Source: Diphasiastrum complanatum (Eukaryota > Streptophyta > Lycopodiopsida > Lycopodiales > Lycopodiaceae). From it: a DNA stretch of 64,000 nucleotides. Each line of letters begins with the position of its first letter. Within the stretch, counting starts at the first letter, position 1. Made by a program: the position numbers and the translations under genes. Below are positions 25,632-54,597 of this stretch, piece by piece. The stretch covers positions 45,360,050-45,424,049 of the forward strand of contig CM055097.1 of assembly GCA_029204225.1 (NCBI GenBank). Direction: 5' to 3'. Under the pieces are notes generated by a model. The model was given only the letters and a program-made list of their open reading frames with translations. It was not told where the DNA came from and searched no databases.

Positions 25632-25666
25632 CATTAGAGGAGTTCTCAATATCAAAAAGATCCTTT
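25632..25666 (+). repeat. Left terminal inverted repeat, copy 1
   Basis: Starts CATTAGAGGAGTTCTCAATA and matches the reverse complement of 33240-33274 at 34 of 35 positions (one C/T difference). The same start occurs at 45297 (diverged) and 52383. Confidence 0.9.
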
Positions 25667-26027
25667 GTGAAGATACTTTTATTTTTTTTCTTTAGTTTCG
25701 ACCATCACTAGGCCCAATCAAAATGCACAGATTTGAAATCTACGTAACGTAGTTCAAATTAACTGAGAAATAGAAATGCAATATAAAAAACTTTGAAATT
25801 TGTGTCCGGGCAGCATGGATGTATCCCATTGGTTTCTTCTTCCTGCCTGACACGTGCTAATCTGCCCGACGTCAATACCTCAAGTTAAATCTACTTGACT
25901 ATGCTGGTTAGTATAATGTAATTTTCTAACTATACTAGTTACAGTTATAGAAATACAGTATGTACAGTTACATAAAATATGGTATACGTAGTAACTGTGA
26001 CTATGTTGGCATTCACATAGGTGAAAT

Positions 26028-27468
26028 GTGATACGAAAAATTGAAATTAAGTATCATATCAGAGAGATTTTTGGCGCCCAAGCTTTGAAAATAGCAATGG
26101 CAAGGAGACCCAGATCTACAATCGAGTCTGTGATTCTTTACAATGAGAAAGATGAAGCTGATAATTGGAAGCCAATAAAATATATGAAGAATTCATGGGT
26201 ATTGCTGCATCCATCATCAAAGGGCAATTTTCGACAAAAGAAAAGAGCAAAAATGACTTACAAATCTTATTGGAATGCAAAAATTTTGGAGTTTAAACTA
26301 CCCCGGGAGGTCAATCGATATCGGAAGTCTTAGTACAACATTTATATATGCATTCAGAAATCAAAGTACATGATATCAATCCTCATGATCATCAAAAATG
26401 TGATTGTAAGTATATCAAAACATATGCACTCTACAACAATCATAGGAGATTTTTTTTATTGGTGCTCTTCATATTATGATTTAAATGCTTCAACATTGTT
26501 TTTTTTCATTCAGATTTATATCCATCATGCATAAGTGAATGGGAGCCCGCACAATCACTTGCAGGAATATTAGACGTGATTCACTCTGATGTTGAAAAGC
26601 TGCAATACAGAGAAAGAAGTCCAAAGGAACTTGCAGATTGTGGTATCTATTTTTATGAATCTTTATATATGCCACAAACAGATGGAGGTTTTGGCAAGCT
26701 CGAAGCTGTTCCATTTTCTAGTTTTCAAAGTGATGAGTGGCCTACTCCTGACAGTATTATTTATGAATCCTTGAGATGCAAGCTACTCATTGATATTAGA
26801 AATGCTATGAAGATAAGCACAGGCTCAAAAATTGTTCACCTAAGTTGGTTTATCTCGTTACATATAATTCTTGATTTTTTCTCGAGTGCTAGTGTTCGTA
26901 GGACACCAACTTATTTGTTTGCAAGGATTTATCAGATGAGACTTTGTCAAATCTCATGGATCAAGGCTAGGATAGTAAAACAAATAATGACATAGAATGC
27001 AGGATTAAAAAGTCCTCAATGATCTTTCGTTATCATATCGAAAAGCAAATGCTCAGTCTCACATTTAGCTACCAGAGATACAAGAAAATTAAAGGTACAT
27101 GGCTACCACTGGATCAAGACTTTGAACTAGATGGTCACACAAACCGAATGGAGATAAGCATTATCTACAATGAGGAATATTTGACTATGGTTGAGGTGGA
27201 AGAGCATTGGAAGCTTGATTTTATCAGAACAGAGCTCATGCTATTACAAACCAATCTACCAACATATTTCAGATTTATCATCAACGGAAGACTCGTAAGT
27301 ACTTTATGTTTATTGCCATTTCAAAATAGATCAAAATAATTGAAAATGTCACCATTTACAACTGAACATTCACTAATATTTGTCATGTCATAGATGCAAA
27401 AAAGACAAGAGCTGATAATGTGCTGCAAAAATCTACTTACAACAATCACCATTGTGGGAGAACAATAG
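26028..27468 (+). pseudogene. Gene A1 of the TIR element, unknown protein, copy 1
   Basis: The plus-strand gene nearest the left TIR. Conserved blocks occur in order: KIEIKYHIREIFG and ARRPRST (26030-26115), SEWEPAQSLAGILD and HSDVEKLQYRERSPKEL (26535-26635), PDSIIYESLRCKLLIDIRNA (26750), DLSDETLSNLMDQG (26925), and TWLPLDQDFELDGHTNRMEI with VEEHWKLDFIRTELMLLQ (27090-27250). An intron is visible: GTAAGTACTTT after 27293, with TAG acceptor before 27395, then the final exon to TAG 27468. Copy 2 at 45626-47120 encodes the same blocks, so the region is protein-coding. In copy 1 there is a stop inside DQG-DSK and a damaged donor near 26448. I recognise no domain. The start is uncertain: ATG 26028 or 26097. 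Confidence 0.7.
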
Positions 27469-27637
27469 TTTCAAATAAACTTTAGTAAAAATCTATGTAT
27501 ACACTCTTTCATTCAATAAATGAAAGCCCAAGTTGGGCATCAATACATGTATTTTGTGCTCCCAAATTCATAAAATGGAACAACATTTGATATATCAATG
27601 TATATTTATCTATGAATTCTACACATGTATTTTTGTT

Positions 27638-29420
27638 CTATGCTATCTGTATTTGTTCTAATCTTAATTTAGTATAGCTACATCATCCTTTGCACCATCA
27701 TCAATAGCGGGAGGCTGAAGCCTTGCCCTAGCCACTATACTCAGGATAATTTCTTGTCTAAATTTGTACACCTGGCTTGATGTGTACTCAGAAGTGTAAA
27801 CTGCAAGATAGAACATTCATGTATTAGTAATAGCTAAAAACATCAACAAAATAGAAAACTAATCATGATTCCAAGAATAAGAATAAACAGAATTTATTAC
27901 CTTAGAAATATCAACATATTCCTGAAGGTTGAACCAATTAAAAAATAACTTGACATTGTATAATGTGTACCACCCACAACTGAACGAATCATTTTGCTGG
28001 GGTGACTGCAAAAAAATTCAGCACACAAGAAATCAACTATGAAAAAGAATGAATTAGAATGAAATAAATACATTAGAATACTGATTTCAGATTGCTATTA
28101 AGAAAGACAAAATTTACCTCCAAACTGATGATCTGCCAGTCCACGGAATAGGGAACATCTGTAGGAATATATTTACTTAAATATGGAAGGTATATATCTA
28201 CATCCTTATGCGTATTGCTCGTCAAATTCATCTTGACACAAAAACCTTTAATACTATTATCTACAAATCTCTTAATAGAAATCATGTTTAAACTCTAGTG
28301 GTCACTGCAAAATAAGATTGTAATTTCTTTAGCTGCAATTCTGAGAACTATTTCCATTGACAATGCCAATGTTAAAGCATTAAACGACAAGAAGCATTTA
28401 ATATATCTTACTTGGTATGATAAGAGATGAGCAGATACTTTGTTGCTGGTGTGAATCCACTAGTCAGACATTGTGACAATGTGTCATTATTCTCCTTGAA
28501 GGCCTGAAGCAAAAAGTTACTCATCACCAGCAACTCAGTGGTTGAATCTCTTGCAATGTCATATTGCAAGAGTGTAAGCCTGGATTCTATCACATGATCA
28601 CTGATAGAAGCCCATCTGTCTTTGAGATCCAAACAATCAAGAACTCTATAATTTATACTAAAATCAAGTTCATCTAGTCTAAAACAAAATAGAGTACCAA
28701 TTGTATCTATAGCATCGGATATGTCCTTCTCAAATTTAAGATAATCATCGGAATCTATATATGTATAAAGATTTGGAGGAGGAGGAGGAGGTGGATGTGT
28801 AGTATCTATAGGAACTAAAGGGGTATCCAAAACAGATGTAGGTACATTTACAACATTATCAAGAGCAGCGTTATCTACAATTGATTCCGGATTAGGCTTC
28901 ACAGATTCTATGGTGTCTACCCTCCTTACTTTCTTTGGAGCTCTCTTGGGAGCTGCCTGCTTCCTAGGACGCTTGGTAGAAGATCAGTCCTATCTAGAGG
29001 AGTTGGTCTAGGAGCAGCAGGCTGAGATACGTGTAACTTGCAAAACCTCTCCCTCATTCTTATCAGGAGCTGAAAATCCTTGGGCATTACGGTGACTCTC
29101 TTGGAATGCATTGCAAGCAAAAATGAATCTTCAAAAAAATGGCTCATGTAATCTTCAGCAGCCTCTTGAAGGCACTGAAGAGCACTGCGTGTGAATCTAA
29201 CCAGCTATCCGAGATCATTTCTAGTTATGTTTTGTACATCACGGTAGAATGGTGCTCTTGGAATCAATAGAGCGATTGATCTCTGATACTTACGTATTTC
29301 AGAGAGCCATTTATTGCGGTTGCACGTTCTAGGTCTAGCGGGAGTTGTAATGGCAATCGCAGGAGCTGAGGACAAGCCAGCAAAGAAGAAGTCCCTCCTT
29401 GTCTGCTTTGTCCTATCCAT
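27638..29420 (-). pseudogene. Gene A2: histone H3-Ulp1-like protease fusion, copy 1
   Basis: Exon 1 (29420-28412) opens MDRTKQTRR, like the H3 tail. An H3 fold follows: EIRKYQRS (residue 41 on), PRAPF, SALQCLQEAAEDY, and HSKRVTVMPKDFQLL (about 105-119). The tail is some nine residues shorter than normal, and loop 1 is one longer. After a basic and proline-rich linker comes a C48/Ulp1-type domain: RWASISDHVIE in exon 1, NDH-stop-SLNMISI in exon 2 (28304-28118, where the family has HW), SPQQNDSFSCGWY in exon 3 (28005-27901), then exon 4 from 27800. The introns are GT-AG. Such proteases cleave SUMO. The position of the catalytic Asp appears to hold Asn (CVKMNL). Defects: TAG for Gln72, a frameshift near residue 146, TAG at the Trp site, and a frameshift in exon 4. 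The ancestor was about 490 residues, probably nuclear. Confidence 0.85.
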
Positions 29421-30217
29421 GGAAGTGTACTATGGGATATCGGACTTGTGCGTGACGACTAGGATGAGCAGGGAAGGATGATAAAGCCCTTGCAGAGAAC
29501 CGATATGTACGGATAGAATGTACGGTATATCAGACCTGTGCGAGCCGAATATAAGAGAGATAGATTAGTATAGAAGAAAGACGCAAAAGTGCGATACGAG
29601 GAGACACGTAGGCAGATGTATTGGACCTGTGCGCATGGAAGGCGGTAGGAAGAATATCGATTGTGAAAAATGTGCACGTGCGACATGCGGAGCAAAAAAA
29701 AAAGTGAAAAAAATTCATCAAAGTTTGTGATTTTACATCGCAGTTCGAACGTGCGAAAGAACGTCCTGTCACTCGTGTGGGACTTGTACGGTCAAATGTG
29801 AGAGCGACATGTGTCACCCTGTCACTTTACACATGTGGGATTTGTATGGGAAAATGTGAGAGCGACACGTGTACAGGTGTCATTTCACACGTGTCCAGGT
29901 GTCACCTCACACGTGCTAGTGCCTGTAGTCCAATTGAAAGTAGACACGTGTCCTTTGACCGTTGACCACACGTGTGAAAATTTAGTATAAATGGCACGAA
30001 ATCCGATTAATTTTTTACCTTTTTTGTTCTCAAAATTCATGGCATATCACTCTTGTGCGCGTGCATTGTTGTTTGTTTGTTTGCAACGATACCTACTTGT
30101 GCACAAGTGCGATATTCGGTATCTACCTGTCGTACATATCTCTCTTGTGCACGATCTTGAGAGTTAGTTTTGTTTCAGTTCTCCCTCGCGCACAAGTGCG
30201 ATATCTACGTTACTTCC
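29421..30217. promoter_or_regulatory. Bidirectional promoter between A2 and A3, copy 1
   Basis: About 800 bp between divergent starts. A G-box cluster (ACACGTGT or CACACGTG at about 29865, 29886, 29908, 29943 and 29967) lies before TTGACC pairs and a TATA box, TATAAATGG near 29986, facing A3. On both sides the element GTGCGATAT or CTTGTGCG recurs (29444, 29535, 29587, 29627, 29671, 30050, 30098, 30145, 30188). Its best form is the palindrome CGCACAAGTGCG. The same architecture is present at 49525-50374. Confidence 0.65.
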
Positions 30218-31525
30218 ATGACCTCTTCCTCAGGATCCTCATGAGATTCAGGCTTGAGTTCATTTTTTACTGAATTTGGGATTACTGAAAATCTAGACTA
30301 CTTCCACAGCCTATTCAGACCATATCTACATGTTTTCAGGACTGCACAACCAAATTTTGACATATTTTATGAACATTATGTTAGATTCATAGATATACTT
30401 AGTAAGCATGTTTTCTCCATAGATTCACTCCAGTACATGCCTTATACTGATCTTGTTCATTTCTTCTCAGCTTTCAGACATAGACTAGATAGAATGTTCA
30501 CCAAATTGTTTGAACTTTTCAAAAGCAGTTCAATGTGTCCTTATTGCAACAAGAAATGTCGATTGGTTGAATATCAGAGTGATTTCATACTTTTCATGTT
30601 AGTTCAGATCCCAGATGATGAGGAAGTTTCTATTGCTGACCCTCTTACTGCATCATCCTCTGTTCAGTCAGTTATTAAGGATATCTGTCACTTCCTTATC
30701 GACACTCCTGATAAGGAAAGTGACTTTATTGATATAAATACTGATGTTCTCCGGGATTCTTTTATTGGCCAAAATACATATGTTGATGAATCGATCCCTA
30801 TAGAGGAGTCTAAATGTCTTTTCAATTTGCTTGTATATTATATTAATGACGATGTATATTTCACTACTGCTGATTTATGTAAATTTTTTGACTATCGTGA
30901 AGATGAGGTTCTATGTTTATTATTCGGCACAATTTCCAAATTCTTCGACTTTGTAGATTTTGAAATAGATGACCTTGTTGCTGGTATTGATTTTGATGAT
31001 AAGGAGGGACTTATGACAGGTGAAGAATGCCTGAGTAAGACTTTATCAAATATTGCTGAGGATGGGCGAGGCAGACCATCCGATGAAGAATTCACGGCAT
31101 TTCAATTTCAGTTTGGCTTCCCTCATCCATCATTAATGCATTTCACTGATGATTCCACTTCAGTACGTGGTCATTATATTGATCATCCTGATCTGGTTGT
31201 TGCTGATGATGAAGAATGTGTAAGTGTTTAAACTTCCTTGCCTTAGAATGTTTTTAATCACTGAATGTGTTTTTGCTAACATATTTTCTATTGCAGGATG
31301 CTCTCATAATTGATGATTTTGCTGGAACACGACGTGGTTTCAAACAACACGCATCCTCGTTCCAGAGGGATAGTGGACTTGGCCACTGTCTTAGGCATTT
31401 CCTGAAGAATGAGATCTGTATTGCTCATTCCAAGTTGAGCCCAGTTGGGGAGAGGCTTATAATGGTAGTTAAAGCTTTATCAATTTGCCTAGGAGGACAT
31501 AAATTGTTAAGACAAATAAGATCAT
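30218..31525 (+). pseudogene. Gene A3 of the TIR element, unknown protein, copy 1
   Basis: ATG at 30218 is followed by TGA eight codons later (copy 2 has CAA). The frame is then open to 31219: FFTEFGITENLDYFHSLFRPYLH, a CPYCNKKC zinc-ribbon-like half site near 30535, Asp/Glu-rich segments (QIPDDEEVS, FIDINTDVLRDSF), and DYREDEVLCLLFGTIS. The donor GTAAGT is at 31220 and the acceptor TTGCAG ends at 31296. Exon 2 (DALIIDDFAG, LRHFLKNEICIAHS) continues until about 31525, where it runs into inverted gene B sequence, so about 120 C-terminal residues are missing. I recognise no family. The protein is acidic and probably soluble. Confidence 0.7.
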
Positions 31526-32701
31526 TCATAGAATGTGACAATGTATCTCAGCAAGTAGTTTAGATCAGCAAATAACTTGTTTAATGAATTATAGAATATC
31601 GATTTTCCATCAGTTTCATACACCTCCTCAATATGAAATGGAGTTCCAGTGATCTTATGCATACCTATGTTTAATGTATCTCTCTCTTTCTTCAAGTGAT
31701 ATGTCCTAGGGATTGGGACTTTTCTAATTTGAACTTGCTTAAAAGCTTCTCTAATAGTTTAAATATTGTTGCATATGCTTCCATGCTAATACCTGCAAAA
31801 TCACAAGCACCCTGAACTATAGTCTTATCTAAAAAAATTTGAATGTCCACCATCAAAGACTCTGCTATTGAACTCCTATTGTTCATCATGATACACTCAG
31901 TGGATTTGCAAGTCAATATTGTGCCCAATGACATTCCTAGTAAAGCATTGTCTTTAATATTCCGAGGAGCTACTAATGCAGATCTGCAAAAAAACAGATA
32001 GGTTAACAGAAAATCACCATAGCTGAATTAAATCCAAATGTCATTGAAAAACTTACAAAAATCAAAATATGCTTACTTGAATGCACAGATCCTTCTATTT
32101 CGATAACCTCCTTTTGAAAGCGTTTGAATATCCTTGCAACTTTGTCGCTTTTGCTTCTTACTTTCAACCTTCTTTTTTGCCCAATCCACATCCTTCAATA
32201 ATTGTAAGTTTTCAATACGAATAGATTGTAAGACTGATTGCATTTGCTCTAGTTCTGATTTGATATTGATTGTTATCTTCTGTAATGATTCATTGATTTT
32301 TTTAAGTAGTTCATTTTCTTCTAATGTCTTTTGGAGATGACAATCTCTATTCTGACAATAAGAGGATATCCGAATTAACTCAGCTTATAAAAAGTGAACT
32401 TATTTCATATAAAGTTGCTTTCCACGGTTCTGCAATCTTTCACAATATCCTAGTAATCCACTATGCCCATTGCATATCCATGTAACTAAATGAGTTATTG
32501 AAGAGAATGTGGATGTGTCAAAGTGCTTGAATCTTGTGGATATAATGTTCCAGCTATCCACAAATCCAAGTTTTTTTTTCCTTCTGCCCTGTAACGAGAA
32601 CAATCCTCAGCATATATTTGAATTCCTTCACCTCCTCTTCTCTGCAAAGGTGCCAAATCCATAAGGATATCCACATGTAGATGATACAATGTCATCATCA
32701 A
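31526..32701 (-). pseudogene. Gene B of the TIR element, possible transposase, copy 1
   Basis: The minus-strand gene next to the right TIR. The start MMMTLYHLHVDI at 32701 matches MMTLYHLHVDI in copy 2 and MTKLYHLHVDL at 38768. A coiled-coil segment follows, rich in Glu, Lys and Leu, then a basic patch, an intron at about 32073-31987, and an exon with SLGTILTCKSTE and AYATIF. It is truncated at the A3 junction near 31526. Frameshifts occur near 32540, with stops near 32385. The role is inferred only from its position by the terminus and its conservation in three copies. No DDE motif can be traced with confidence. Confidence 0.6.
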
Positions 32702-33239
32702 AAAAATAATAGAGTAATCAGTTGCATCAAAGTACTATGACCAAATTTTATGAAGCAAAACAAAATACTCATATTTGATTATATTATATAATATGTACGA
32801 TCAATCCAATCTCCATGCTTGTATGCTTGATTCAAATTTGAAAATGCCGGTCATTTTTTCATTCCAATAGGTAGTTGGCGCTCATATTTCCATTCCAAGG
32901 TGATGATGGTGTTTATAATTGGAGATGGCACCCATATTTCCATTCTCGTAGAAGGAATGCATATGTAAACATTTTGCAATTTTTCCTGATTCGAATTTGG
33001 CGATGGCAGTCATATTCTAGATCCATTGAAAATATTGCCCTTTTCGTAACCAATGGAGGGAATATTTTTGAATTTAGTCAAGTTATACTGCGGACTGTTT
33101 ACAGTTCTTAACTGTGACTATAGACACTTTGGTTAGATCATTGGGAGTTGGGGAGGCCTCGGGAGTGGTGGGGGCAAGCAAATAAACAATATTGTTATTT
33201 TTATTTTGATATTTTTCTATATCCTACATGGCACTCCTT
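32702..33239. other. Subterminal region at the gene B end, copy 1
   Basis: Non-coding. It contains repeated text GATTCAAATTTGRARATGCCGGTC near 32829 and GATTCGAATTTGGCGATGGCAGTC near 32989, a further GATGGCACCCATATTTCCATTC unit, and TAACTGTGACTA at 33109. The last also occurs at 25992 near the other end. Repeated subterminal words are typical transposase-binding sites. Confidence 0.6.
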
Positions 33240-33274
33240 AAAGGGTCTTTTTGATATTGAGAACTCCTCTAATG
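33240..33274 (-). repeat. Right terminal inverted repeat, copy 1
   Basis: The reverse complement begins CATTAGAGGAGTTCTCAATA, matching 25632 onward and 52383 onward. Confidence 0.9.
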
Positions 33275-45296: not shown

Positions 45297-45625
45297 CATT
45301 AGAGGAGTTCCAAAATAAAAAAAGATTCTTTGTAAAGATATTTTTATTTATTTTTCTTTAGTTTTGACCGTCACCAGGCCCAATCAAAATGCACAAATTT
45401 GAAATCTATGTAGCGTAGTTCAAATTAATTGAGAAATAAAAATACAATATAGAGAACTTTGAAATTTGTGTTCGGGCAACATGGACTTATCCCATTGATT
45501 TCTTCTTCCTGCCCGACACATGCTAATCTGTCCGACGTCAATACCTCAAGTTAAATCTACTTAACTATGCTGGTTAGTGTAATGAAATTTGCTAACTATA
45601 CTAGTTACAATTATAGAAATATAGT

Positions 45626-47120
45626 ATGTACAGCTACATAAAATATGGTATACACAATAACTGTGACTATGTTGGCATTCACATTAGATCAAATGTGATA
45701 CAAAAAATTGAAATTAAGTATCATATCAGAGAGATTTTTGGCGCCCAAGCTTTGAAAATAGCAATGGCAAGGAGACCCAGATCTACAGTCGAGTATGTGA
45801 TTCTTTACAATGAGAAAGATGAAGCTGATAACTGGAAGCCAACAAAATATACAAAGAATTCATGGGCATTGCTGCATTTATCATCAAAGGGCAAATTCCA
45901 AAAGAAAAGAGCAAAAATGACGTACAAATCTTATTGGAAAGCAAAAATTTTGGAGTTTAAGACTACCCCGGGAGATCAATCGATATCAGAAGTTTTAGTA
46001 CAACATGTATATATGCATTCAGAAATCAAAGTACATGATATCAATCCTCATGATCATCGAAAATATAATTGTAAGTATATCAAAACATATGCACTCTACA
46101 ACAATCATAGGTGATTTTCTTTATTGATGCTCTTCAGATTACGATTTAAATGCTTCAACATTGTTTTTTTCTTTCGGATTTATATCCATCATGCATAAGT
46201 GAATGGGAGCCAACACAATCACTTGCAGGAATATTGGACGTGATTCACTCTGATGTTGAAAAGCTGCAATATAGAGGAAGAAGTCCAAAGGAACTTGCAG
46301 ATTGTGTATGAATCTTTATATACGCCACATACAGATGGAGGTTTTGGCAAGCTTGAAGCAATTCCATTGCCTAGTTTTCAAAGTGATGAGTGGCCTACTC
46401 CTGACAGTATTATTTATGAATCCTTGATATGCAAGCTACTCATTGATATTAGAAATGCTATGAAGATAAGCACTGGCTCGAAAATTGTTCACCTAAGTTG
46501 GTTTATCTCATTACATATATTTGTTGATTTTTCTCGAGTGCTAGTGTTCGTAGGACACCAACTTTATTTGTTTGCAAGGATTTATCAGATGAGACTTTGT
46601 CAGATCTCATGGATCAAGGCTGGGATAGTAAAATAAATAATGACATAGAATGCAGGATTAAAAAGTCTTCAATGATCTTTCGTTATCATATCAAAAAGCA
46701 AATGCTCAGTCTCACATTTAGCTATCAAAGATACAAGGAAATTGAAGGTACATGGCTATCACTGGATCAAGACTTTGAACTAAATGGTCACACAAACCGA
46801 ATGGAGATAAGCATTATCTACATGAGAAGTATTTGACTATGGTTGAGGTGGAAGAGCATTGGAAGCTTGATTTTATCAGAACAGAGCTCCTGCTATTACA
46901 AACCAATCTACCAACATATTTCAGATTTATCATCAACGGAAGACTCGTAAGTACTTTATGTTTATTGCCATTTTAAAATAGAATAAAATAATTGAAAATG
47001 ACATCATTTACAATTGCGCATTCACTAATATTTGTCATGTCACAGATACAAAAAAGACAGGAGCTGATAACATGCTGCAAAGATCTATCTACAACAATCA
47101 CCATTGTGGGAGAACAATAG
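45626..47120 (+). pseudogene. Gene A1, copy 2
   Basis: The same protein blocks as 26028-27468, with a longer intact first exon: ARRPRSTVEYVILYNEKDE, KRAKMTYKSYWKAKILEF, VLVQHVYMHSEIKVHD and KYNCKYIKTYALYNNH to the donor at about 46110 (AG then GTGATT). The second exon begins near 46181 (DLYPSCISEWEP), and GGFGKLEAIPLPSFQSDEWP is clean. DLSDETLSDLMDQGWDSK keeps the Trp that is a stop in copy 1. A one-base loss near 46820 (IIYNEEYL region) breaks the frame. The last exon ends at TAG 47120, 160 bp from the convergent end of A2. Unknown function. Possible starts are ATG 45626 or 45764 (MARRPRST). Confidence 0.7.
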
Positions 47121-47280
47121 CTTCAAATAAAGTTTAGTAAAAATCTGTATATAGACTCTTTCATTCAATAAATGAAAGCCCATCAGTACATGTATTTTGT
47201 GCTCCTAAATTCATAAAATGGAGCAGCATTTGATATATCAATGTATATTTATCTATGAATTCTATACATGTATTTTTGTT

Positions 47281-49524
47281 CTATGCTATCTGTATTTGTT
47301 CTAATCTTAATTTTGGTATAACTACATCATTCTTTGCACCATCATCAATAACGGGAGGCTGAAACCTTTCCCTAGCTAGTATACTCAAGATAATTTCTTG
47401 TCTGAATCTATACACCTGGCTTGATGTGTACTTAGGAAGTGTAAACTGCAAGATAGAACATTCATATATTAGTAATGGCTAAAAACATCAACAAAATGGA
47501 GAACTAATCATGATTCCAAAAATAAGAATAAACAGAATTTATTACCTTAGAGATATCAACATCTTCCTGAAGGTTAAACCACTCAAAAAATAACTTGGCA
47601 TTGTATAATGTGTACCACCCACAGCTAAATGAATCATTTTGCTGGGGTGACTGCAAAAAAATTCAGCACACAAGAATTCAATTATGAAACAAAATGAATT
47701 AGAATGAAATAAATACATTAGAATACTGATTTCAAAATGCTATTAAGAGAGATAGAATTCACCTCCAAACTGACGATCTGCCAGTTCATGGAATCGGAAA
47801 CATTTGTAGGAATATATTTACTTAAATATAGAAGGTATATATCTACATCCTTATGCGTATTGCTCGCCAAATTCATCTTGACACAAAAACCTTTAATACT
47901 ATTATCTACAGATCTCTTAATAGAAATTAGGTTTAATTGTTTAAACTCTAGTGGTCACTGCAAAATAAGATAGAAATTCCATTAGTTGCAATTCTGAGAA
48001 TATTTTTGTGAAGTTTTTAGCACGTGTGAACTTCATCAGACACCCTACAGGATCTTACTGAGGTGTTGTGATTGCACAAGATTGATCAAAGAATAGTATG
48101 CTTGAAAGATCTAAGGCAAGAGCATAATGGCATACATCTGATGGAAAAATCTAACTCTTCACTATGAGAAATGAATGCTCATAAAATTGCCTAGACATGT
48201 GTAGATCACAGAAACTACTTTGCATGTTGCATGCACTGATTGCATGTGGCTTGCATGCATACAGTAAGACTTTGCATGCTATCAAAACATCTGCATGTCA
48301 TTACAATTGAACCTATCTAACTCAAATTCGAGCTACACTAGAAGGATATGTGCTCAATTCACACTCCTTATATGTACAACATGAAATCTAGTGGAAATTA
48401 TCATGGACATGACCCCAAACTCGAGATAGGAAGATAATATTTTAATAGTCTTCACAATTTCCATTGATAATACCAATGATAAAGCATTAAACATCAAGAA
48501 GCATTTAACATATCTTACTTGGTATGATAAGGCACGACCAGGCATTTTGTTGCTGGTGTGAATCCACTAGTTAGACATTGTGACAATGTGTTGTTATTCT
48601 CCTTGAAGCCCGAAGCAAAAAGTTACTAATCACCAACAATTCATTGGATGAATCTCTTGCAATGTCATATTGCAAGAGTGTAATCCCAGACTCTATCACA
48701 GGATCACTAATAGAAGCCCGTCTATTTTTAAGATCCAAACAATCGACAACTCTATAATTTATACTAAAGTCAATTTTCTCTATTCTAAAACAAAATGGAG
48801 TACCAACTCTATCTACAACATTGGCTATGTTCTTCTCAAATTTAAGATAATCATCGGAATCTATATATGTATAAAGATTTGAAGGAGCAGGAGGAGGTGG
48901 ATGAGTAGTATCTACAAGAATTATAGGAACCAAAATCGATGTAGCTATATTTACAATCTTATCTAGGGCAACATTATCTACATTTGCATCCGAGTTAGGC
49001 TTCGCAAAGTCGGTGGGATCTACCCTCCTTACTTTCTTCGGGGCTCTCTTGGGGGCTGCCTGCTTCCTAGGATGCTTGGTAGGAAGATCAGTCCTATCTA
49101 GAGGAACAAGTCTGGAAGCAGCAGGATGAGACATGTATAACTTGCAAAATCTCTCCCTCATTCTCATCAATAACTAAAAGTCCTTAGGCATTATGGTGAC
49201 TCTCTTAGAATGAATAGCAAGCAAACATAAATCTTCAAAAAAAAGGCTCATATAGTCCTCAACAGCTTCTTGAAGGCACTGGAGAGCAGAGGGTGTGAAT
49301 CTAACAAGCTGACCAAGATCATTTCTAGTTATGTGACAGACGACATGGTAGAATGGAGCTCTAGGAATCAACAGAGCGGTTGATCTCTTCTACTTAGGAA
49401 TGTGATAGAGCCACATGCTGCGGTTGTGCCTTCTAGATCTAGCCGGAGTTGTAATGGCAACCGTAGGAGTTGAGGATGAACCAGCAGAGAAGAAATCCCT
49501 CCTTGTCTGCTTTCTCCTATCCAT
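47281..49524 (-). pseudogene. Gene A2: histone H3-Ulp1-like protease fusion, copy 2
   Basis: ATG 49524 begins MDRRKQTRR. The H3 fold is recognisable: PRAPF, FTPSALQCLQEAVEDY, FEDLCLLAIHSKRVTIMPKD (even closer to canonical H3 than copy 1). The linker has KHPRKQAAPKRAPKKVRR, a basic stretch that could be a nuclear signal, and PPPPAPSN. Protease part: LDLKNRRASISDPVIESG, a frameshift near 48605, NDH-stop at the HW site, CVKMNL, QQND..S.CGWY near 47645, and the last exon FTLPKYTSSQVY to TAG 47281. Stops: TAG at Tyr45 (next residue Gln46 is Lys) and TAG at Gln117, both intact in copy 1. The TAG at the HW site is shared. The gene is therefore real and ancestral but dead here. Confidence 0.85.
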
Positions 49525-50374
49525 GGACGTATACTCAGGGATATTGCACTTGTGCGTGACAAAGAGGATAAGAAGGGGAGGATTAGGAAGCATTCGCAGA
49601 TGAGCTGTATGTACAAAAATAATGTACGGTATATTGGACATGTGCGAGCCAAATATAAGAGAGATCGTTGAATATAGAAGAGAGGCACACAAGTCCGATA
49701 TGAGGAGACATGTAGGCAGAAATATCGGACCTGTGTGCATGGAATGCAGTAGGGAGAATATCGATTATGAAGGTGGCGCACAAGTGCGATATGCGGAGCG
49801 AAAAAAAAAGTGAAAAAAATTCATCGAAGTTTGTGATTTTATATCGCAGTTCGCACGTGTGAAAGAACGTCCTGTCACATGTGCAAGTCGTCTAGTCATC
49901 AACATGTGGTGACAAGTCAACGAATGATCATTCGACACATGTCAATTTGTCATTTCACACATGTGAGATTGTACGGCCAAATGCGAGAGCGACACGTGTT
50001 GTCCATCCCACTAATGAGCACGAAATACCTTGTGTCATTTCACACGTGTCCAGGTGTCACCTCACACGTGCCAATGCCTGCAGACCAATCAAGAATGAAC
50101 ACGTGTCCATTGACCGTTGACCGCACATGTGAAAATTCAGTATAAAAGGCACGAAATACGATTAATTTTTTACTTTTTTCTTTCTCGAAATTCACAGCAT
50201 ATCGCTCTTGTGTGCGCGTTTTGTTGTCCATTTTATTCATCGATCCCTACTTGCGCACAAGTGCGATATTCAGTTGCTACCTATCGTACATATCCCTCTT
50301 CTGCGTGATCTTTATAGTTAGTTTTGTTTCATTTTGTCTCGCTTGCACACAGGTGTGATATCTGCCGTAGTGCC
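49525..50374. promoter_or_regulatory. Bidirectional promoter between A2 and A3, copy 2
   Basis: Repeats the copy 1 layout: palindrome GCGCACAAGTGCGATAT at 49776 and at 50253, a weaker form near 50346 (GCACACAGGTGTGATAT), several GTGCG words on the A2 side, ACACGTGT boxes near 49995, 50042, 50066 and 50098, TTGACC at 50110 and TATAAAAGG near 50140. Preservation of these words in both diverged copies supports function. Confidence 0.65.
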
Positions 50375-51879
50375 ATGGCCTCTTCCTCAGGATCTACACA
50401 AGATTTGGGCCTAAGTTCATTTTTTACTGAATTTGGGATTACTGAAAATCTAGACTACTTCCACAGCCTATTCAGGCCATATTTACATGTTTTTAAGACT
50501 GCACAACCAAATTTTGACGTATTTTATGAACATTATGTTAGCATTTCAGGGATATACTCAGTAAGCATGTTATCTCCATAGGTTCACTCTCGTACATGCA
50601 TTATAATGATCTTGTTCATTTCTTCTCAGCTTTCGGACATTGACTAGATAGAATGCTCACCAAATTATTTGATTTTTTAAAAGCAGTTCAATGTGTTCTT
50701 ATTGCAACAAGAAATGTCGATTGGTTGAATACCAGAGTGGTTTCGTACTTTTCCTATTAGTTCAGATCTCGGATGATGAGGAAGTTTCTGTTGATGACCC
50801 TCCTAGTGCATCATCCTCTGTTCAGTCATCTATTAAGGATATCAGTCACTTCCTAATCGACACCCCTGATAAGAATAGTGACTTTATTGATGTAAATATT
50901 GATGTGCTCCGGGATTCTTTTATTGGCCAAAATACATCTGCTGATGAATCGATCCCTATAGAGGAGTCTAAATGTCCTTTCAATTTGTCAGTATACTATA
51001 TAAATGACGATGTATATTTTACTACAGCTGATTTATGTCAGTTTTTTTGACTATCGTGAAGATGAGGTTCTATGTTTATTATTTGGCACAATTTCTGAAT
51101 TCTCCGACTTTGTAGATTTTGAAACAAATGACCTTGTTGCCGAAATTGATTATGATGATGAGGAGGGACTTATGACCGGTGAAGAGTGCTTGACTAAGAC
51201 TTTATCAAATATTGCTAAGGATGGACGAGGCAGAATTCATGGCATTTCAATCCCAGATGGGCTTCCCTCGTCCATCGTTAATGCATTTCACAGATAATTC
51301 TACTTCAATAGGTGGTCATTATATTGATCATCCTGATCTGGTTGCTGCTGATGATGAAGAATGTGTAACTGTTTGAACTTTCTTGCATTAGAATGTTTTT
51401 AATCATTGAATGTGTTTTTGCTAACATATTTTCTATTGCAGGATGCTCTCATAATTGATGATTTTGCTGCGAGACGAGGTGGTTTCAGACAACACGCATT
51501 CTCCTTCCAAAGGGATAGTGGACTTGGCCACTATCTTAGGCATTTCCTGAAGAATGAGATCTGTATTGCTCATTCGATGCGGAGCCTAGTTGGGGAGAGT
51601 CTGATAATGGCACTTAAAGCTTTATCATTTTATCTAGGAGGACATAAATTTGTTAAGACAAATAAGATCATTTTTGTCAAAAGATCTTATGTTTTAAACA
51701 TTCTAGGTTTTACTGATGGGAATGTTCCTTTAAGGAGCTCCCATTATTCATTGTACTCTACTTATATTGAACTTAGTGGAAATAAGGAGAATGAACATCT
51801 ATTAGATGCATACTCTAGCAGAGAATTTCTTCATGACAATACTGCCATAGAATCTGACACACAAGCTGATGATGAATAG
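50375..51879 (+). pseudogene. Gene A3, copy 2 (full 3' end)
   Basis: ATG 50375 gives MASSSGSTQDLGLSSFFTEF, without the early stop of copy 1. CSYCNKKCRLVEYQS is near 50692. Acidic stretches follow, with a frameshift near 51040 (poly-T). Exon 1 ends near EEC at 51366 and exon 2 starts at 51442. Exon 2 is intact to TAG 51877-51879 and supplies the C-terminus absent from copy 1: IIFVKRSYVLNILGF, SSHYSLYSTYIELSG, and an acidic end DTQADDE. Frameshifts also occur near 50550 and 50640. I do not recognise the family. Confidence 0.7.
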
Positions 51880-52382
51880 TGGGCACTTTGTATTTTGTTA
51901 TAATACAATCAATACATTTACATTGAGTATTTCTCCTCTCTCTTATTCTATGAATTTGCATGCAATTCTGAACATGTCACATATTTACATTGAGTATTTC
52001 TCCTCTCTTGTTCAATGAATTTGCAAGCAATTCCGAACATGTCATGATTTGATGACAATGATGATTGAATGTCTTTGTTATCTTCTACTCAACAATCATC
52101 TAATTTTCTCTTCCTATATGAACTTGCATGCTTTTCTAAAGTTGTTGTATTGTGTGGACTTTGTTATATATCGACTATGAACTCTGCGGTAGAACCACTT
52201 AAACAATTGACAAATGTAATTTCATTTTTCATTGGTTCCTCCATGTTGTGTATTTCGATAAAATGCTGCTTGTGCTTGCCAATGTGACTTCTCCATCCCT
52301 TGTGATGACCATACACTCAAGCTTCCATATGTGTTTGCAAAAAATGCTATATGATCTCTTAGTATGTGCTGCATATGTCAAA
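51880..52382. other. Spacer after A3 with a 65-bp tandem duplication
   Basis: ATTTACATTGAGTATTTCTC followed by CTCT..., then GAATTTGCATGCAATTCYGA and ACATGTCA, occurs twice in tandem (about 51918-52044). The rest is AT-rich with no gene. It holds the unresolved join between the A arm and the inverted B arm. Confidence 0.6.
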
Positions 52383-54597
52383 CATTAGAGGAGTTCTCAA
52401 TATCAAAAAGACCCTTTAAGGAATGCCATGTAGGATATAGAAAAATATCAAAAAAAAAAAAATTGTTTATTTGCTTGTCCCCACCACTCCCGAGGCCTCC
52501 CCAACTCCCAATGATCTAACCATAGTGTCTATAGTCACAGTTAAGAGTTGTAAACAGTTCACAGTATAACTTGACTAAATTCAAAAATATTCCCTCCATT
52601 GGTTACGAAAAGGGCAATATTTTCATTGGATCTAGAATATGACCGCCATCCCCAAATTTGAATCAGAAAAAATTGCAAAATGTTTACATATGCATTCCTT
52701 CCACGATAATGGAAATATGGGTGCCATCTCCAATTATGAATGCCATCATCACCTTGGAATGGAAATATGAGGGCCAACTACCTATTGGAATGCAAAAATG
52801 ACCGGCATTTCCAAATTTGAATCAAGCATACAAGCATGGAGATTGGATTGATCGTACATAGTATATAATATAATCAAAGATGAGTATTTTGTTTTGCTTC
52901 ATAGAATCTGGTCATACTACTTTGATGCAACTGATTACTCTATTGTTTTTTTGATGATGACATTGTATCATCTACATGTGGATATCCCTATTGATTTGGC
53001 ACCTTTGCAGAGAAGAGGAGGCAAAGGAATTTAAATATCTGCTGAGGATCGTTCCCGTTATAGGGCAGAAGGAAAAAAAAAACTTGGATTTGTGGATAGA
53101 TGGAACATTAATCCACAAGATCCAAGCACTTTGACACATCCCACATTCTCTTCAATAACTCATTTAGTTACATGGATATGCAATGGGCATAGTGGATCAC
53201 TAGGATATTGTGAAAGATTGCAGAACCATAGAAAACAACTTTATATGAATAAAGTTCACTTTTTAGAAGGTGGATTAATTCGGATATCCTCTTATCGTCA
53301 GAATAGAGATTGTCATCTCCAAAAGACGTTCGAAGAAAATGAACAACTTAAAAAAAATAATGAATCATTACAAAAGATAATAATCAATATCAAATCAGAA
53401 CTAGAGCAAATGCAATCAGTCTTAGAGTATATTTATATTGAAAACTTACAATTACTGAAGGACGTGAATTTGGCAAAGACAAAGGCTGAAAGTAAGAAGC
53501 GAAAGCGACAAAGTTGCAAAGATATTCAAACGCTTTCAAAAGGAGGTTATCAAAATAGAAGGATCCGTGCATTCAAGTAAGCATATTCTAATTTTTGTAA
53601 GTTTTTCAATGACATTTGGATTTAATCTCAGCTATGGTGATATTCTGTTAACTATCTGTTTTTTTTGCAGATTTGCATTAGTAGCTCCTCGGAATATTAA
53701 AGACAATGCTTCACTAGGAATGTCATTGGGCACAATATTGACTTGCAAATCCACTGAGCATATCATGATGAACAATAGGAGTTCAAATGTAAAGTGTAAA
53801 ATAGCAGAGACTTTGATGGTGGACATTCAAAATTTTCAGATAAGACTATAGTTCAGGGTGCTTGTGATTTTGCAGGTATTAGTAGGAAAGCATATGCAAC
53901 AATATTTAAACTAATTAGAGAAGCTTTTAAGCAAGTTCAAATTAGAAAAGTCCCAATCTCTAGGACATATCACTTGAAGAAAGAGAGAGGTACATTAAAC
54001 ATAGGTATGCATAAGATCACTGGAACTCCATTTCATATTGAGGAGGTGTATGAAACTTATGGAAGATCGATATTCTATAATTCATCAAACAACTTATTTG
54101 TTGATCTAAATTACTTGTTGAGATACATCGTCACATTCTATGATATAACCTATGAAAAGGTGAATGGCAAAATAATCATAGTACTTAAGTTAGATGAGTT
54201 AGAAATTGTGAAAGGGCAGAAGATGGAGAGGGTTAGTATAACTCTCATGAATGGTGCTCTATCACAAACAGAGAACCAAGAAGATTTTAGATTCAGTGTC
54301 CAGTCAGAAAATGATATATGTTGGTTGGCAGCGTTTCAGGTAACTAGCCTCATTATTACATTACACTGTCATTGAATAGTATTAATTCATTGTAAACGAA
54401 GTCTGATTAATTCTTTTGGATAGGCGCTGAAGGAAGATCATGATATATTATCATGGATATTCTCAAGGACATCTTATCCTAGGATCATCAAGGACCATAT
54501 GGATGGAGGACTTCTCAAGATTCCAAGAGTTGGAGACTTCAATGTTGAATGGCACTTAGCAGGTGATTTGACAACATTGAAATGTATGTATAGTTAA
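52383..54597 (+). mobile_element. TIR element, copy 2, B arm (inverted)
   Basis: Starts CATTAGAGGAGTTCTCAATA and corresponds to the reverse complement of 31526-33274, extending about 450 bp beyond the junction of copy 1. In copy 1 this arm points inward from the right end. Here its terminus points left, toward the A arm. So either the arm was inverted, or it is the left end of a separate truncated insertion. Confidence 0.8.
52954..54597 (+). pseudogene. Gene B, copy 2 (most complete)
   Basis: Exon 1 (52954-53576) starts MMTLYHLHVDIPIDLAPLQ and contains ICNGHSGSLGYCERLQ, a coiled coil (LKKNNESLQKIIINIKSELE) and a basic end (SKKRKRQSCK). Exon 2 (53671-54339) has SLGTILTCKSTE, KAYATIFKLIREAFKQVQI, NNLFVDLNYLLRYIVTFYDI, VLKLDELEIVKGQKMERVSI and QSENDICWLAAFQ. 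Exon 3 (from 54424) has EDHDILSWIFSRTSYP, VGDFNVEWHLAGDLTTLKCM and a stop at 54595, probably where the arm is truncated. Defects: a stop near 53030, a frameshift around the poly-A near 53075, and a frameshift near 53835. Three genomic copies with conserved introns make it a true gene. A transposase role is likely by position but not shown by motif. Confidence 0.7.

Follow-up and report, generated by a model that had tools for sequence, protein, structure and literature searches.

A histone H3 domain fused to a Ulp1-type protease domain on a clubmoss transposon with a RAG1-like transposase

Can a transposon carry a histone of its own, joined to a protease in a single protein, and what would such a protein do for it? 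The question is raised by a locus of the clubmoss Diphasiastrum complanatum, in the 64,000-nucleotide stretch of contig CM055097.1 that we refer to as the window, where a preliminary description had proposed that a histone H3 fused to a Ulp1/C48-type protease lies within a terminal inverted repeat (TIR) element. Our analysis supports the fusion of an H3 domain to a Ulp1/C48 domain within a TIR transposon and shows that other places in the genome hold open copies. The gene, H3-ULP, comprises four exons on the minus strand (27664-29420), with GT-AG at all introns, and its protein runs along that strand from a short H3-like tail through an H3 histone fold and a basic, proline-rich (Lys/Pro-rich) linker to a Ulp1-type protease. 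More generally, the element itself carries H3 on two diverged families, here termed A and B, one of which adds a predicted SUMO-type protease. If this H3 builds nucleosomes of the element's own, it would be a case of a mobile element bringing its own chromatin state, and if the protein enters chromatin, the notion of a selfish element that sets its own nucleosome composition becomes directly testable.

In the window copy, which belongs to family A, exon 1 (28412-29420) encodes the tail MDRTKQTRR, the H3 fold, the linker and the start of C48, as judged from PF00125 matches and from homology to a relative at locus L019 (L-numbers denote genome loci of D. complanatum, whose genome spans 1.74 Gb, and P-numbers denote database proteins). 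Exon 2 (28118-28304) covers the catalytic-His region of the protease, exon 3 (27901-28005) reads PQQND-SCGW across its Gln and catalytic Cys region, and exon 4 (27664-27800) supplies its C-terminal end. The H3-like start and fold, the same-direction exons leading into a protease and the QQND and S-CGW motifs had all been read from the letters beforehand, and they stand: PF00125 exceeds its cut-off of 26.4 bits in both pieces of exon 1 (28.2 and 53 bits), which are separated by an in-frame TAG. The HW-type site that had been named along with them is unreadable in this copy, a stop being placed beside the catalytic His. With this stop, the TAG within H3, a frame change in the linker and a one-base indel in exon 4, the window copy of H3-ULP is a pseudogene. 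The expected profile match to the protease family likewise fails here, PF02902 on exon 3 alone scoring 17.9 bits, under its cut-off of 20.7, and hence the window copy by itself is no proof of a protease. That proof is provided by the spliced relative, in which both profiles score over cut-off.

At L019 (contig C7) the gene is open across all four exons and encodes 470 amino acids, with PF00125 at 97.3 bits (E=1e-27) and PF02902 at 42.2 bits (E=1.1e-10). Exon 1 spans residues 1-327, with the H3 fold at 27-123, and the PF02902 match begins at residue 316; a weak alignment to SENP2 (E 0.0099) begins about 60 residues ahead of the end of exon 1. Since the C48 match begins within exon 1, the exon that encodes H3 also encodes the first part of the protease. 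Intact copies are not confined to this locus: among the 26 aligned family-A copies, eight combine a complete frame with every splice site and a final stop. As 24 of the 26 had been chosen for open or nearly open frames (L014, L015, L017, L019, L026, L028 and L031-L048, only the two window copies being unpicked; L027, with exons 2-4 missing, was dropped from the 27 examined), this proportion is no random rate. A genome-wide search for exon 1 scored 122 copies among 9915 loose candidates, all of which align at 84-100% identity over at least 311 of the 327 residues; stops are absent from 24 of the 122. The premature stops of the scored copies are mostly TAG, a bias that would fit C-to-T decay at CAG (CHG) sites of methylated copies. 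Every one of contigs C1-C23 bears scored copies, as do smaller contigs, and the family-A element is hence no contaminant.

The proposed placement of the gene within a TIR element is confirmed by its ends, of 35 bp each: a 5' TIR (CATTAGAGGAGTTCTCAATATCAAAAAGACCCTTT) at 33240-33274 on the minus strand and an inverted 3' TIR at 25632-25666 on the plus strand, identical at 34 of 35 bases. They bound a degenerate and internally deleted family-A element (25632-33274, minus strand in the orientation of H3-ULP), and homology to other copies stops at both. In a second element the TIRs agree at 35 of 35 bases; the first 29 of these bases (CAYTAG...) have 1295 exact occurrences in the genome, and the reversed control pattern has none. 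Relative to L029+L026, the window element is without about 1.8 kb, the transposase core included. A complete family-A element of 8.7 kb (L030+L019) contains between its TIRs a transposase (+), a gene X (-), H3-ULP (+) and a gene Y (-).

The transposase of this element has a RAG1-core-like fold (structure matches 4wwx, 6b40 and 6pqr), with D-D-E and a C2H2 zinc site (CxxC, HxxxxH) at RAG1-like spacing. The TIRs start with CATTAG in A, where one end reads CACTAG, and with CATTAG in B. Membership in CACTA (EnSpm), considered on account of one CACTA-type end, was set aside, the transposase being RAG1-like. No Mutator-like element (MULE) family is among the Pfam matches of the transposase pieces, which have RAG1-like fold matches instead, although absence from that list does not exclude one. 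A sequence search of the PDB with a transposase profile gave no match, and of 16 pattern matches to the transposase in viral contigs none was confirmed. A RAG1/Transib-like transposase is seen here in a plant (L030+L019, L021), with many relatives in public assemblies and one in the fern Ceratopteris (P0102-P0221); its presence in a clubmoss and the spread of its relatives bear on how ancient and how widely distributed the lineage behind the V(D)J recombinase is.

The PF00125 search also found family B, at 13 loci (L009-L013, L016, L018, L020-L025), where H3 forms the C-terminal part of a long proline-rich protein. A complete family-B element (L021+L072, 784-9834) measures 9.05 kb, with TIRs beginning CATTAGGGC. 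At the DNA level, A and B loci match in simple repeats and in a few further pieces, the longest of 282 bases, and no such match covers the H3 gene. Protein identity between the families, among the matches listed, is 31-61% over aligned pieces for the transposase (up to seven loci), 31-34% for X (10 loci), 49-53% for H3 (all 13 loci) and 30-35% for Y (up to 12 loci). The order TIR-transposase-X-H3-Y-TIR is common to both, X and H3 each being inverted in B relative to A. No protease was found on family B in 11 of the 13 loci (L011 and L023 were left out), in a search whose positive control on A worked, and the simplest reading would be that H3 joined a common ancestor and that the protease was added later in A. 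Both the H3 of this second family, with no protease found, and the RAG1-like transposase had been missed in the preliminary description. Some family-B loci form near-identical pairs (L009/L013, L010/L011, L012/L022; 97.8-99.2% identity), the two members lying on separate contigs or at distant places of the same contig, and these are either recent copies or duplicated segments.

The H3 part retains the architecture of a core histone. In an AlphaFold2 prediction of the window H3, with TAG read as Q, helices aN, a1, a2 and a3 fall at 33-47, 55-70, 78-106 and 113-130 (mean predicted local distance difference test, pLDDT, of 78), and all 50 structure matches listed are nucleosome structures. The tails read MDRRKQTRRD in A and MARTKQTARD in B and continue with unrelated sequence in each; the modifiable tail of canonical H3 (K9, K14, K27, K36) is not present in A or B. 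With what we take to be canonical H3 position numbers, the equivalents of H113 and R116 are kept in the aligned rows and D123 in all but L028, while B retains C110 and A has lost it. Compared with canonical H3, loop 1 is one residue longer in A and of the same length in B, and the helix-1 Gln is lost in both. A tree of H3 proteins (P0005, P0008 and P0013 having been left out of an earlier one, and P0006 and P0011 in addition out of this one) groups A with B at a support of 94/89, with a long-branch warning. The element domains resemble core H3 and CENH3 in their complete histone fold and about 50% identity, but differ from them in a tail that is mostly replaced and in being joined to other sequence, a protease in A and a long proline-rich N-terminus in B. 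Among database proteins, P0069 (O6H91_03G120200, D. complanatum) resembles a host CENH3 in RWTAEAL, AEDY and a longer loop 1, and P0005, P0006, P0009 and P0013 are H3-like proteins with long extensions. The LIPRAPF stretch of families A and B also occurs in P0006, which may belong to a related element. P0006 was considered as a second H3-Ulp1 fusion and is rejected for now, its C-terminal part matching the A profile at E 0.16, with 468 of 1000 shuffles scoring as high, and having no Pfam C48 match.

The protease domain of family A is assigned to Ulp1/C48 by the curated cut-off and may act as a SUMO protease. Its His, Gln and Cys motifs align with those of Ulp1/SENP SUMO proteases (6dg4, 1euv, 1tgz), from which it differs in its unaligned catalytic acid and its fusion to H3; DHW, PQQN and the Cys of CGW are present in seven of the eight complete copies. 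Selection on the codons was analyzed in nine open copies, the eight complete ones and L042, which is without the final stop. By the NG86 (Nei-Gojobori) method, the ratio of nonsynonymous to synonymous substitution rates (dN/dS) is 0.31 for the H3 fold (confidence interval, CI, 0.20-0.50), 0.30 for the protease (0.20-0.46) and 0.46 for the linker (0.31-0.67). With context-dependent mutation rates and an expectation taken from synonymous sites, the ratio of amino-acid changes to expectation is 0.49 for H3, 0.41 for the protease, 0.48 for the linker and 0.48 for the tail, and with an expectation taken from introns it becomes 0.69, 0.60, 0.68 and 0.63, respectively. There is, then, moderate evidence for constraint across the whole protein, and neutral decay after insertion would dilute these values.

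The explanation that we favour, with slightly better than even confidence, is that a multi-gene TIR transposon encoding a RAG1-like DDE transposase has left a decayed copy in the window, that H3 serves as the chromatin handle of this element, and that family A adds a local protease to it. It draws on the fusion in open copies, their splice signals, the moderate codon constraint, the gene order shared between families and the transposase, all observed by computation. Families A and B share one arrangement of four genes (transposase, X, H3, Y), and in A the H3 gene is extended by Ulp1/C48, giving a single spliced product of 470 amino acids. The H3 part would pair with host H4, or act as an H3 mimic alongside element proteins in a complex, and would thereby mark or open chromatin at the element or at its target; in family A, the protease could then act locally, removing SUMO or a related tag from silencing factors or neighbouring histones, in a role comparable to that of the anti-silencing KIU/VANC genes of VANDAL elements, which bear Ulp1. 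The product of H3-ULP is hence probably an element-encoded chromatin factor; its expression, its binding to nucleosomes or H4, its protease activity and its anti-silencing role are what we infer. A bolder form of this explanation appears possible to us, though doubtful: that the transposons of a RAG1-like lineage of vascular plants use a core H3 encoded by themselves to assemble nucleosomes (or H3-H4 units) specific to the element, which would direct its transposase and, in one of the families, bring a SUMO protease to its own chromatin.

Several observations weigh against the favoured explanation. As no protease was found on family B, the role of the fusion is not the function that the families share. 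Complete copy L034 is without the catalytic Cys, and where the catalytic Asp of C48 would be expected the alignment is gapped, with KMNS there and no clear match. Over all 26 rows dN/dS is 0.22 for H3, 0.44 for the protease and 0.46 for the linker, the first two values counting on this side; the intron yardstick gives weaker constraint on H3 (0.69) and protease (0.60), the corrected measure leaves the H3 fold (0.49) no more constrained than linker or tail (0.48 each), and the copies compared were mostly chosen for open frames. Finally, no 5-bp target-site duplication was seen in seven end pairs, for four of which a single insertion was assumed from orientation and distance, and one pair has a possible 3-bp duplication (TCA).

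If the gene were a mere passenger, a host H3 fragment and a protease would have been picked up by chance and copied without function. Captured gene sequences are frequent on plant transposons, according to PMC13317346, at least one stop is present in 98 of the 122 scored exon-1 copies, and the H3 fold is not preferentially constrained under the corrected measure; nonetheless, such a capture is distinctly improbable given that two very diverged families both retain H3 and share their gene order, that amino-acid changes are below expectation in all parts, and that exon 2 measures 187 bases in 22 of the 26 copies and exon 3 105 bases in 24. We also see little probability in a gene with two products, whose unspliced transcript would stop in the 5' splice site (YHTK*) and yield H3 plus linker, the protease half coming from a minor spliced form or never being made. 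AAGTAA or AAGTAG directly follows exon 1 in nine of nine aligned rows, as this would have it, and family B encodes H3 with no protease found; yet the C48 match starts within exon 1, in exons 2-4 both length and splice sites are mostly preserved, and the codons of the protease show constraint.

The identity of the histone leaves room for two other views. A captured CENH3, used for centromere targeting or for disturbing the kinetochore, is suggested by the absence of the helix-1 Gln of H3, by AEDY in A and by FEDS, by a fission-yeast centromeric nucleosome chain that ranks second among the fold matches listed, and by a log-likelihood 3.95 above that of the free search when A, B and the CENH3-like rows are held as one clade. 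We nonetheless consider it unlikely: in that test (P0006 and P0011 also left out) p-AU, of the approximately unbiased test, is 0.725 with long branches, other H3-like rows contain the LIPRAPF stretch but the CENH3-like P0069 of the host does not, and identity to P0069 (48%) is not above that to canonical-type H3. Centromere targeting had also been considered from dense TIR clusters on contig C1, at 64973700-66677524 and at 95-99.6 Mb (among the places listed, the first 100 of 1295, all on C1). These clusters show near-identical flanks in both orientations, shared by ten of ten sampled ends in the first and four of four in the second, and are therefore duplicated or amplified segments that carry an element end, which rules that targeting out as their cause; none of a GC-flanked subset of 30 ends genome-wide was placed in either cluster. 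The remaining view assigns H3 the part of a decoy or ligand, its tip (ARTKQTAR in B) being read by an element or host protein without serving as a nucleosome subunit. The PHD finger of RAG2 reads H3K4me3, and it is by way of RAG2 that RAG-like elements read histone H3. In keeping with this, the transposase is RAG1-like, and an MxRxKQTxR-type start is present in eight of the 13 B loci, being exactly MARTKQTAR in six of the eight, with the remaining tail replaced. A low probability nevertheless seems appropriate, as the whole histone fold is kept and not merely the tip, the MDRRKQTRR start of A should give no free H3 N-terminus, and the tips of L013 and L024 are altered.

Among known systems, the closest parallel to the protease is found in VANDAL elements. 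PMC13317346 describes DNA-binding anti-silencing proteins that counter transposon silencing, and VANC (KIU) genes with Ulp1 whose targets are short motifs in the non-coding DNA of related elements and which lead to hypomethylation of such copies, the Ulp1 part having no known role of its own. The likeness lies in a Ulp1 domain within a multi-gene plant DNA transposon, and the difference in the vehicle, a non-TIR MULE there and a TIR element with a RAG1-like transposase here; the word histone has no occurrence in the main text of PMC13317346. With RAGL/Transib elements, the elements described here share the transposase fold, D-D-E and the CxxC and HxxxxH spacing, with a TIR start of CAYTAG as against the CACTWM given in PMC7204232. 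They differ in that no 5-bp target duplication was seen and no RAG2-like gene recognised, in the H3 that they carry and in their plant host. KDZ transposons of fungi carry TET/JBP genes, for which our literature search returned no paper, and are alike in being DNA transposons with a chromatin-modifying gene, differing in transposase and gene. Among the titles and abstract beginnings listed in searches of the open-access literature, not all of them aimed at this question, there was no histone-encoding transposon, H3-Ulp1 fusion or land-plant RAG1-like element. A large protein search, of limited sensitivity and with length limits, returned 13 matches out of 4565 candidates; PF00125 is among the precomputed domains of each of the 13, and PF02902 is among those of none. 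At the top of that search, P0001 and P0002 were discarded as fusions, each being two ordinary H3 copies in one protein. Within the scope of these literature searches and this one protein search, we claim the H3-Ulp1 fusion on a transposon as new.

Parts of the other genes are also present in the window element. The 5' part of the transposase gene lies at 31526-33274 on the minus strand, with the catalytic core deleted. On the plus strand, divergent from H3-ULP, a 328-residue open frame at 30245-31231 represents the presumed first exon of gene X; a significant family-B relative exists for the next exon and not for this one. Gene Y persists on the plus strand as remnants of several exons (26025-27339), with a relative about 30-35% identical on family B. 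Neither gene has a Pfam family over cut-off, and no RAG2-like kelch/PHD gene was recognised among their pieces; by eye gene Y resembles a BAH-domain gene, but Pfam gives this no support. The region between the divergent genes X and H3-ULP (29421-30270) contains six CACGTG and six GCACAAG/CTTGTGC motifs, and in the complete family-A element all six CACGTG likewise lie between X and H3-ULP with GCACAAG/CTTGTGC repeats, neither motif being seen elsewhere in that element. The region may be a two-way promoter or an array of protein-binding sites. Positions 45297-54592 of the window contain a second family-A element, which is either nested or rearranged; its H3-ULP copy, on the minus strand at about 47296-49534, is more decayed and bears an insertion in intron 1, and the element has an extra TIR start at 52383 (+) and a transposase 5' part in the opposite orientation.
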